47,796 nt of DNA from an uncultured Burkholderiales bacterium (GTDB lineage Bacteria > Pseudomonadota > Gammaproteobacteria > Burkholderiales > Burkholderiaceae_C): positions 1-47,796 of the forward strand of contig CAIWAO010000140.1 in the NCBI GenBank assembly GCA_903910745.1, read 5' to 3'. How positions within the stretch are numbered: position 1 is the first letter of the stretch; every line of letters begins with the position of its first letter. The notes beneath the pieces are model-generated. The model was not told the DNA's origin. It was given only the letters and a program-made list of their open reading frames with translations, and did no database searches. Shown here one piece after another: positions 5,949 to 11,422 of this stretch. Made by a program: the position numbers and the translations under genes.

Positions 5949-7040
5949 ATGAGAGTATTTAAATTAACACAAAATTCAGTTACTGAGACTGATACTCTAC
6001 CAGAGCAATTACCCGAGAACGGTTTCCTTTGGATGGCATTTGCTCGACGTGAATTCGAAGTTATTCAGCAAAATATTCAAAATACATTAGAGAGACTTTG
6101 CAATACACAGATTGTAGACCTGCACATTGCTGATATTTTAAATAATCAATTGCCATCACATTACGACTTTACTTCGGATTATGATTTGTTGGTCTTTAGA
6201 CGTTTAGCCTCTGGTCAAAGTGAAACAGATTTGAAAGAGCCTGGAGCTATTTTGCATAGATCAAGCAACAAGTCTGGCCCACCTGTTCTTAGAAAAGTCG
6301 ACACCAGTCCAGTTGCATTCGTTATATTTGGGTCTGTTTTGTTAACTGTACATCCAACGGATTGCTCGGTCAGAGACGGATTCGCACTTAGATTGCTGAA
6401 CTCTGTATCTTCTACATCTCTTCACCGTTTGCCTATTAATCCAGCGGATTTGATGCTTAGGATTGTCAGTCAAATGGTTGATGGGTACCTTAATTTGAGA
6501 CGTGAGTTAACCAGAGAGCTTGATCATTGGCAAAGTGAGTTGCTCAATCCAAGAACTCGTTTTAAGGATTGGAGTGCTTTGTTAGATGCAAGGTTATCCT
6601 TACATCTTTTAGATGAAATTAGTGAGGATCAACGATCTGCAGTTCAAGAATGGACGGACTCATTGGAAACTTTTGCCAAAGAGGCGGAAAACACCCCGAA
6701 AGAACTAGAGCTTTTGAAAGTGAGGAGCCGTGATGTACTTGAACACATTGAACGCGTGGTACACCATGTTAGGCGCTTAGAGCAAAGCGCTGAGACCGCA
6801 GTTCAAATGCACTTTAGTGCGCAAAGTAACAGAACCAATGACATCATGCGGACTTTAACTGTTCTTACCGCTATTTTCTTGCCACTTAATCTTATTACAG
6901 GATTTTTCGGAATGAATTTTGAAACATTCCCATACATACACTATGAGAATGGAATATTTTGGACTATTTTCTTTATGTTTTTTATTAGCCTGGGATCTGT
7001 TTTTTTCTTTTGGAGAAAAAAATATCTAGGTGCAAACTAA
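5949..7040 (+). CDS. CorA/ZntB-family divalent metal transporter
   Basis: This is a CorA-superfamily inner-membrane protein of 363 residues. It has a long cytoplasmic, helix-rich N-terminal part (about 1-300) and two C-terminal membrane helices. The signature GMN motif lies at the end of the first helix (GFFGMNFE). Charged, coiled-coil-like helices around residues 190-290 fit the CorA funnel stalk. ZntB-type members move Zn2+ and CorA-type Mg2+; the loop after GMN (ETFPYIHYENG) does not decide it. The gene ends one base before the convergent DUF442 gene. Confidence 0.85.
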   Translation: MRVFKLTQNSVTETDTLPEQLPENGFLWMAFARREFEVIQQNIQNTLERLCNTQIVDLHIADILNNQLPSHYDFTSDYDLLVFRRLASGQSETDLKEPGAILHRSSNKSGPPVLRKVDTSPVAFVIFGSVLLTVHPTDCSVRDGFALRLLNSVSSTSLHRLPINPADLMLRIVSQMVDGYLNLRRELTRELDHWQSELLNPRTRFKDWSALLDARLSLHLLDEISEDQRSAVQEWTDSLETFAKEAENTPKELELLKVRSRDVLEHIERVVHHVRRLEQSAETAVQMHFSAQSNRTNDIMRTLTVLTAIFLPLNLITGFFGMNFETFPYIHYENGIFWTIFFMFFISLGSVFFFWRKKYLGAN

Positions 7041-7041
7041 A

Positions 7042-7377
7042 TTAGTTACCCAGGCTCCATATTTGAGTTGATCTAGCACCTGACCTGCAAAAAGCCAAAA
7101 CAGGACCTGAGGAAGATTTAACGGCTGAGGCAAATTCCTTCACTAAGTCTTCTGTGAGCTGACCACTCGAGAAGGGGATATGGTAAAAATCCAATCCCAG
7201 TTTTTTAGCTTCTGTTTTAATTGCTTCTGCCTTGGGTTGATCTGGACCGCCTTCTCCGTCAGGGCGGTTGCAGATAATTGTTTTAAAACCTTGTGACGCA
7301 ATCTCCTGTAAATCAGAAACTTCGATTTGAGGTGCAGTTGCAAAGTCTGGGGTGTGTTGTGTAATTTGTGCGCTCAT
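7042..7377 (-). CDS. TIGR01244/DUF442 family phosphatase or sulfurtransferase-like protein
   Basis: This is a small cytoplasmic protein of 111 residues. It has the DUF442 pattern: an N-terminal LQEIASQGFKTIICNRPDGE block and a catalytic-loop motif CRSGARS near the C-terminus, a Cys-x-x-Gly-x-Arg-Ser P-loop shared with dual-specificity phosphatases and rhodanese-like proteins. In the Blh/BigR-linked members this domain serves sulfide handling. Here it stands alone between a metal transporter and a channel gene, so its role is not clear. The Cys and Arg of the loop are intact. Confidence 0.8.
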   Translation of the reverse strand: MSAQITQHTPDFATAPQIEVSDLQEIASQGFKTIICNRPDGEGGPDQPKAEAIKTEAKKLGLDFYHIPFSSGQLTEDLVKEFASAVKSSSGPVLAFCRSGARSTQIWSLGN

Positions 7378-7444
7378 GGGATGACTTAATTTTTAGGTTG
7401 AGATGGACTGACGCTCTAATGTTCAATTCAAACTTATCGTAGCA

Positions 7445-9100
7445 TTAATTGGCAGATTTAAGGAATGAATTTGACCCTTGGATTTCTCGCCATAATTGAG
7501 CTTCACCAGGGGACAATAGTTGGGTAAGTTGATCGTTTATCTCTTTAGGCCCGTATTGCAACAAGATTCCAAGTTGTCTAATGCGGGATAAAGTTTTTAC
7601 AAAATGCTCAAGAGCATGATCCGGATTACTCGCAATTTCAGCTAAGGGTTGTTTGATAAGATCTTCCTCAACCTTAAAGTTGTAGCAAACCTCATCAATA
7701 ATGCCTTTAATCTGTTCGCCAGATAAATTGATTTTTGCGGCCTCAGAAATAACGTAATGATCTTTTTCATTAACGGGTAAGCCTGACTTAAGTCTTTGAT
7801 AGAACTTTGCACTAAGATTTATTTTGTCTTTTAACAATTCATCTGAAAACGATGCGGCTAATAAGCCTGAAGGAATTGCAAAAATTCCTACGCCAATCAT
7901 GGCCATAAATATCGTCATCAGCCTACCAACCGTAGTGATGGGTGTCAAGTCACCGTAACCCACTGAACTTAATGTAATGACAGCCCAGTAAATTGAGCTG
8001 GGGATATTTTCGTATTTATCGGGCTGGGAGTCATGTTCAATTAGATAAACCAGACTTGCTGCCAAAACCACCATCAGCAGCATCACAAATAAGGAAGCTG
8101 CTAATATGGGCGTTTCTCTTGTGAAAACACGTTTTAAAACTTCAGTGGAGTTGTTTTGTTTAGAGAGTTTTAAAAGTCTCATCAATCTGAATATTCGCAA
8201 AAACCGTAAATCAAACAGGTGGTGCAAAAATAATTCCAGAAAAAATGGAACGATTGCAAGAAAATCAACGATTGAAGAGAACTTAAGTGAATGTTTGATT
8301 CGCCCTGTCATCCAATCTTTATATTGCGGATCTTCGACACATGAATAAAGTTTTAGAAAATATTCAATACTAAATAATCCAACTGCAATTGAATCTACGA
8401 TGATGAATTGAGCATTGAATACATAGTGAATCGATTCTACAGACTCAAATATAACCGCAATTACTGATATGACTACCCACCAAACGATAACGTTTTCAAA
8501 CATTCCACTTAGAGCCCCACCATATGGGCTTGGGAAGACAAGGGCATGCATTTTTTGTCTAAAAGTACGGTTTTCATTTAGTTCTTGGAACTCTTTGTAG
8601 GCGGGAATTAAAACTCTAAAGAGTTTTAACATTCTCAACAATCTGAGGAACCTCAAAACTCGTAAATCTATAGGAATGAAAGCTTGAAAGTAAAACGGAG
8701 CAACTGCACAAAAATCAATTAATGCAAATGGACTGAAAAAGTATGCTGCGTGTGGAATTTTTTTGTTTTTAAATTCATGATCTTCAGGGGCTAGATATAG
8801 CCTTAGTAGATATTCAATTGTGAAGACTATGACAGAGAACACATCAAAGACATGAAATAGAGCAGCGTTAGGCTCAAATATCAAAGGTATTCTTTCAACC
8901 ACTAGAGCAAACAAATTTATAATAATAAGAAAGCCAATCCAACCCTCAATTTTTTCGTGTAGGTTGTCCTCTACATTTGGATCTAGCGTGTAAGCATAGA
9001 TTTTTTCGCGAGTTGATTTGCAACTGGCCAACGCCGCTTCTAGACTGATCTGAGCTGCTTCACTGTTTTGTGTATCGTGAAAATCAAGTGTTGAACTCAT
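7445..9100 (-). CDS. Voltage-gated-type K+ channel with two tandem voltage-sensor domains and one pore
   Basis: The protein has 551 residues and an unusual layout. A first four-helix voltage-sensor-like module spans about residues 53-165, with S4 arginines in RVLRFLRLLRMLKLFR. A second, visibly related module spans about 203-313, with S4 LRFLRIFRLMRLLKL. Then comes one pore module (S5 331-354, S6 391-418) with the K+ selectivity filter in TLSSVGYGD at 376-384. The soluble tail covers 420-551. Each sensor has an S2 motif (FTIEYLLRLY and FSIEYFLKLY) and an S3 Asp (LIDF and IVDF). No pore lies between the modules, so it is neither an ordinary six-helix channel nor a two-pore channel. It is probably monocistronic, transcribed divergently from thiC. 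Confidence 0.88.
   Translation of the reverse strand: MSSTLDFHDTQNSEAAQISLEAALASCKSTREKIYAYTLDPNVEDNLHEKIEGWIGFLIIINLFALVVERIPLIFEPNAALFHVFDVFSVIVFTIEYLLRLYLAPEDHEFKNKKIPHAAYFFSPFALIDFCAVAPFYFQAFIPIDLRVLRFLRLLRMLKLFRVLIPAYKEFQELNENRTFRQKMHALVFPSPYGGALSGMFENVIVWWVVISVIAVIFESVESIHYVFNAQFIIVDSIAVGLFSIEYFLKLYSCVEDPQYKDWMTGRIKHSLKFSSIVDFLAIVPFFLELFLHHLFDLRFLRIFRLMRLLKLSKQNNSTEVLKRVFTRETPILAASLFVMLLMVVLAASLVYLIEHDSQPDKYENIPSSIYWAVITLSSVGYGDLTPITTVGRLMTIFMAMIGVGIFAIPSGLLAASFSDELLKDKINLSAKFYQRLKSGLPVNEKDHYVISEAAKINLSGEQIKGIIDEVCYNFKVEEDLIKQPLAEIASNPDHALEHFVKTLSRIRQLGILLQYGPKEINDQLTQLLSPGEAQLWREIQGSNSFLKSAN

Positions 9101-9354: not shown

Positions 9355-11422
<2,068 letters not shown>

Follow-up and report, generated by a model that had tools for sequence, protein, structure and literature searches.

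Can a voltage-gated channel subunit carry two voltage sensors for a single pore, and what would the additional sensor do? A Kv subunit has one sensor and one pore, a two-pore channel has two repeats of six helices with a pore in each, and Hv1 is a sensor alone. To our knowledge, work on sensor-pore coupling and on usable gating charge has so far dealt with channels that have one sensor in each subunit. The question is raised by a gene in a stretch of 47,796 nucleotides from an uncultured Burkholderiales bacterium (the window), which had been predicted to encode a K+ channel with two tandem sensors and one pore. With two intact sensors per subunit, nature provides a test case for how a pore is driven by its voltage sensors, and the coupling question is directly testable because the two sensors of one natural subunit can be neutralised separately.

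The gene (7445-9100, minus strand, as are all parts below) is an open reading frame of 551 amino acids that starts with ATG and has no interruption. From the reading frame, Pfam matches and hydropathy we describe it as a dual-sensor K+ channel of type a, in the order VSD1, linker, VSD2, one K+ pore and C-terminal domain. The N-terminus with the pre-S1 stretch (residues 1-50; 8951-9100) can be aligned to the stretch preceding VSD2. VSD1 (S1-S4, residues 51-165; 8606-8950) has hydropathy peaks at residues 57-75 (S1), 81-99 (S2), 126-144 (S3) and 148-166 (S4). In the alignment its S4 (residues 146-166; 8603-8665) carries R147, R150, R153, R156, K159 and R162, followed by the invariant P166. After an inter-sensor linker (residues 166-200; 8501-8605) comes VSD2 (residues 201-315; 8156-8500), with peaks at 200-218 (S1), 227-245 (S2) and 274-292 (S3). 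Its S4 (S4-2), with the charges R299, R302, R305, R308, K311 and K/R314, gives no separate peak and is a helix at 298-316 in the AF2 model. The next region (residues 316-425; 7826-8155) comprises the S4-S5 linker, S5 (peak at 332-350), the pore and S6 (397-415); it matches Pfam Ion_trans_2 (5.9e-17, residues 340-415) and contains the K+ filter TLSSVGYGD (T376-D384; 7949-7975). The C-terminal cytoplasmic domain (residues 426-551; 7448-7825) had no match in the Pfam search. Hydropathy and the AF2 model together bear out the predicted ten membrane helices, with a single pore after both sensors.

Is the first module really a four-helix sensor? Hydropathy, Pfam and a structure model agree that it is. 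Pfam Ion_trans matches the protein in two stretches, and each sensor alone passes the cut-off of 25 bits (residues 31-200, containing VSD1: 2e-14, 53.8 bits; residues 201-315, VSD2: 1.9e-10, 40.8 bits). The two modules share 37% of residues across 103 aligned columns (E 2e-16), with a local score of 175, while 500 shuffles of VSD1 reach 63 at most. Two complete S1-S4 sensors in tandem are present, as had been claimed. The model of VSD1 alone (mf241f085de97; mean pLDDT 70.9 from an eight-row alignment) has sensor-type helices, the S4 helix being broken for one residue near 156. In Foldseek its best match is Kv4.3 (E 1.3e-3, with none at E 0.001 or better), and all 50 listed matches, of 223, are voltage-gated channels. 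At E<=1 a VSD1 profile finds 53 PDB sequences (best KCNQ2, 2.9e-6), whose names are those of Kv, KCNQ, Nav or Cav channels or chimeras; one is titled BH1501 protein, presumably the NaChBac channel. The full-length AF2 model (mean pLDDT 63.9, pTM 0.49) continues S4 of VSD1 as one helix over residues 146-174 (block pLDDT 65-83). Its pore region is too uncertain (residues 317-389 below 50) for it to serve as a guide to the position of VSD1, and its listed Foldseek matches, with rmsd 13 to 30, are little informative.

Conservation was examined in 75 distinct proteins, the window's included, that have two S4 motifs and the K+ filter. Invariant in all 75 are F93, E96, Y97, R100, D129, P135, D145, R147, R150, R153, R156 and K159 of VSD1, and R162 is present in 72. 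The four S4 charges of VSD1 are partly conserved by construction because the selection rule demands them, and all fetched candidates with a long N-terminus satisfied the rule. F93, E96, D129 and K159 lie outside the rule, yet are the same in 75 of 75; we take the first three to be the charge-transfer residues known from Shaker. In VSD2, F243, E246, D279, R299, R302, R305, R308 and K311 are present in all 75. The distance between the two S4 segments is 152 residues in 74 proteins and 151 in one, and that from S4-2 to the filter is 80 residues in all. The linker (residues 166-200) has no gap in any row and one insertion column, and P166, A167, F171 and R181 are invariant. Among 138 distinct channel ORFs, every protein whose filter is preceded by more than 300 residues had both S4 motifs. 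Since the layout is common to 75 distinct sequences, it is no fusion artefact.

Over 20 disjoint pairs with an identity floor of 75%, dN/dS is 0.087 in the pre-S1 stretch, 0.054 in VSD1, 0.047 in the linker, 0.054 in VSD2, 0.021 in the pore and 0.070 in the C-terminal domain; dN of VSD1 exceeds that of VSD2 in 13 of the 20 pairs, with one tie. Without that floor the two sensor values are 0.100 and 0.099 over 22 pairs, two of them ill-matched. Purifying selection on VSD1 and VSD2 is equal. As judged from these sequences, VSD1 has not decayed and looks like a working sensor.

How does this protein compare with the known channel classes? Like Kv channels, it has a single pore domain with a K+ filter, preceded by a sensor (VSD2) whose S1-S4 helices include the S4 charges and the S2/S3 countercharges, and KCNQ2-5 (Kv7) align to VSD2, pore and S6 (residues 203-420; best E 1.3e-25). 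The K+ filter and the S4 pattern are thus shared with Kv and KCNQ channels. Kv channels, however, have six helices and one sensor per pore domain, whereas here a complete additional VSD of about 115 residues and a linker are joined N-terminally, giving two sensors and ten helices. In a PDB search with the full protein, no best stretch covered VSD1 among the 60 matches listed of 227. Two-pore channels also have two VSDs per chain, but they have two pore domains, in contrast to the one pore with a K+ filter found here. VSD1 resembles Hv1 in that no pore follows it directly, but it has a Kv-type six-charge S4 and is joined to a full Kv channel. BacNav channels have a TLESW-type filter, unlike the SVGYGD of this protein. 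The single-sensor SVGYGD relatives (e.g., G000:C19:46086-47120) share the kind of pore, the linker stretch and the side of the tree, but are missing VSD1. The chain thus falls outside the Kv, two-pore and Hv1 classes as commonly defined, and by its sequence the channel is a member of the voltage-gated channel superfamily that departs from the usual count of one sensor for each pore unit. No dual-sensor single-pore channel was found among the matches listed in the open-licence PMC literature.

The spread of the architecture is narrow. In samples that count the window's own genome (G000), full-length dual-sensor genes were found for two genomes among 300 of the order (G000, G215) and two among 398 of the phylum (G000, G653); the family sample of 299 genomes yields four intact ones (G000, G843, G822, G1156). 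At E<=1e-100, 76 of the 84 genomes of the window's genus have at least one match that takes in VSD1; the remaining eight comprise two with single-sensor genes only (G818, G886), two with untypable C-terminal pieces (G867, G896) and four with no match. A second genus (g39) has dual-sensor genes in 24 of 151 genomes and single-sensor genes only in one more. Nine matching records are named, all of them MAGs: uncultured Burkholderiales (five), Betaproteobacteria or beta proteobacterium (three) and Comamonadaceae (one). With 75 sequences, the architecture constitutes a family of some betaproteobacteria. We distinguish four types (a, b, c and d), assigned by tree for fetched sequences and by bit score for the others; the window's genome has two dual-sensor genes and one single-sensor relative. 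In one genome of the family sample (L182, G1073), a dual-sensor channel and its upstream gene, discussed below, are each split between frames, by decay or sequencing error. A mobile origin was considered and rejected: matches covering 80% of the protein occur in none of 81 matching plasmid records, none of 5 phage records and no viral contigs. A defence role was likewise set aside, PADLOC giving no match.

We favour, with moderate confidence, the reading that Burkholderiales have here a voltage-gated K+ channel with two active voltage sensors in each subunit. Four subunits would form a tetramer with one pore and eight sensors. A normal S4-S5 linker would let VSD2 drive the gate, and VSD1, which appears to have all the residues needed for moving gating charge, would be coupled to VSD2 by a helix of fixed length that leads from its S4 into the VSD2 pre-S1 stretch. 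The 152-residue spacing, the gap-free linker and the invariant P166, A167, F171 and R181 fit such rigid coupling. The second sensor would contribute either additional gating charge or another voltage-dependent step, and the opening would become steeper, delayed or shifted. Of the roles originally proposed for the first sensor, tuning the gate thus fits best, a part in assembly is possible and an Hv1-like proton path finds no support. Counted against our reading are the low confidence of the full-length model, the broken S4 helix and the lack of a Foldseek match at E 0.001 for the model of VSD1 alone, the insertion column in the linker, the higher dN of VSD1 in 13 of 20 pairs and 14 close relatives that carry one sensor.

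The main alternative is that VSD1 is chiefly structural, serving assembly, membrane targeting or the docking of a partner, with its charges kept for folding. We consider this unlikely, though not far-fetched. In its favour, a gene is found directly upstream of 49 of the 75 dual-sensor genes (4 of the other 26, L011, L101, L118 and L144, cannot be judged, having fewer than 100 bases of upstream sequence) and upstream of none of the first 14 single-sensor relatives, as if VSD1 were its dock. The encoded partner protein has one hydrophobic segment in 47 of 49 cases and four conserved cysteines in 48 to 49 of 49. Examples upstream of type b are L002:746-1411 (contig C19 of the window's genome) and L134:3777-4364, with 47 further loci. 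Eight of the 49 proteins match the partner profile by construction because it was built from them. Fourteen mapped loci have 8 bp between the end of the partner gene and the first ATG of the channel; in L002 the distance is 23 bp. Searches with four partner proteins in Pfam and three in NCBIfam gave nothing better than E 0.24 and 0.038, respectively, and the profile had no PDB match at E<=1.

The partner follows the dual-sensor genes across genomes. Among the 300 genomes of the order sample, only the two with dual-sensor genes carry it. In g39 it is present in 23 of the 24 dual-sensor genomes (all but G679) and in none of 127 others, and by their coordinates none of the 25 copies is more than 70 bases away from a dual-sensor gene. 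It is present in 71 of the 84 genomes of the window's genus, including 70 of the 76 with dual-sensor genes; the six exceptions (G819, G823, G840, G860, G874, G892) have only type a, c or d. Elsewhere in that genus it is found in neither of the two single-sensor-only genomes, neither of the two untyped ones and one (G898) of the four without a channel match. The only copy in the window's genome adjoins the other dual-sensor gene (C19), and there is none near the window copy. Where a channel type has the partner, the encoded protein probably acts as an auxiliary subunit. Against a purely structural VSD1, all VSD1 charges are kept in types a, c and d although these have no partner gene, and F93, E96 and D129 would be superfluous in a mere dock. 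In addition, a partner-like gene (E 4.5e-6) lies upstream of a further single-sensor relative, in which no VSD1 is seen (L180:743-2706, G1168); the partner therefore does not strictly need VSD1, which lowered our estimate of this alternative.

Might VSD1 itself conduct protons or cations, in the manner of Hv1 or an omega pore? Formally it is Hv1-like, a sensor module with no pore directly following. The proton path of Hv1 uses an aspartate in S1. Position 62 in S1 of VSD1, the presumed equivalent of Hv1 D112, is Asn in 65 and Ser in 9 of 74 residues, and never Asp. The S4 of VSD1 has four arginines followed by K159 and R162, as in Kv channels, and no molecule named Hv1 is among the 53 PDB matches to the VSD1 profile. 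We therefore regard such conduction as very improbable.

The single-sensor relatives bear on the history of the family. In a tree of VSD2 plus pore (136 of 138 rows), dual-sensor and single-sensor SVGYGD proteins stand together against 47 other Kv proteins with support 98, and the split recurs (99/96) in a thinned tree of 62 rows with six long rows dropped. The single-sensor relatives fall inside the dual-sensor clade in this core tree. A short linker profile matches 10 of the 14 at E<=1e-4, whereas the N-termini of 48 other Kv proteins give no match at E<=1. The VSD1 modules form one clade (100/99; 21 rows after thinning to 61 proteins, over only 127 columns), an argument for one gain. The simplest reading is a single gain of VSD1 with later losses, although an AU test does not reject a separation of the dual-sensor genes, as a clade of their own, from the single-sensor genes (p 0.079), leaving a late gain as the alternative. 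That the second sensor is a neutral relic being lost, with the nested single-sensor relatives and their retained linker-like stretch as the next step, seems very improbable, given the dN/dS of 0.054 and full charge conservation in VSD1.

What surrounds these genes? The window copy is flanked by thiC (9518-11422, plus strand, divergent; in 8 of 24 loci compared) and a BLH phosphatase-like gene (7042-7377, minus strand; in 9 of 24, all nine type a), and then CorA; the closest relatives of this copy retain these surroundings (8 or 9 of 24 loci). The BLH phosphatase-like gene lies on the same strand, 67 bp past the channel, and is kept beside type a channels. The window copy has neither a partner gene nor a BacNav-family neighbour and lies outside the islands described next; the neighbourhood argument therefore covers its relatives and not the window copy.

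Several relatives lie in islands of channel genes on one strand, in the order partner, type b channel, Kv-like gene with filter TSGYGN, Kv-like gene with ISGWGN or VSGWGN, DUF4337, BacNav-family gene (TLESW) and type c channel. The full island is present in seven fetched genomes of the window's genus (L134, L162-L167; e.g., L134:3777-11265). In five of the seven, 1.3-1.5 kb of other sequence precedes the BacNav gene, and L166 has an opposed Kv-like gene there. Three genomes have the island without BacNav (L135, L169, L170; one with filter IAGWGN), and three partial islands lie at contig ends (L168, L174 with L175, L177). These counts are not rates because the 16 mapped regions were chosen for the known closeness of these genes; in one of them (L176, G890) type c stands without the other island genes. 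The BacNav and type c genes overlap by 4 bp, counted from first ATGs, in all nine genomes in which the junction is visible (L134, L162-L168, L175). In L171-L173 two BacNav-family genes diverge from the partner and type b genes. A search of the window's genus at E<=1e-40 finds BacNav-family genes in 47 genomes, in at least 13 of which such a gene adjoins a dual-sensor or partner gene.

This linkage of several types with BacNav-family genes suggests a role in shaping changes of membrane potential. It provides a concrete candidate set for bacterial excitability, with single-contig genomes among its members. One may tentatively imagine, as a possible if doubtful extension, an electrical-signalling module in Burkholderiales, presumably of freshwater, in which dual-sensor K+ channels, a dedicated one-helix auxiliary subunit, the TSGYGN and ISGWGN Kv-like subunits with their altered filters and a BacNav-family channel would together generate and shape spikes of membrane potential. 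Steep or delayed repolarisation would fall to the eight-sensor channel.

The adjoining TSGYGN and ISGWGN Kv-like proteins (L134:6102-7013 and 7021-7977) are retained across islands and perhaps form a heteromer with changed selectivity. The BacNav-family filters also vary: both genes flanking a type d channel in L139 (3549-6639) have TGDGWSD, and L155 and L157-L161 have TLEGWSQ. In PMC7041947, Gly at filter position 4 together with a polar or acidic residue at position 7 is linked to the Ca2+-selective channel CavMr. By analogy, channels with TGDGWSD or TLEGWSQ may pass Ca2+. L139 also encodes a 374 amino acid protein (98-1222) with an arginine-rich S4-like helix and no visible K+ filter, which resembles a sensor without a channel. 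In two loci (L136:2623-5837 and L140:1072-4307), two dual-sensor genes lie head to tail, a few bases apart, and perhaps encode a heteromeric channel.
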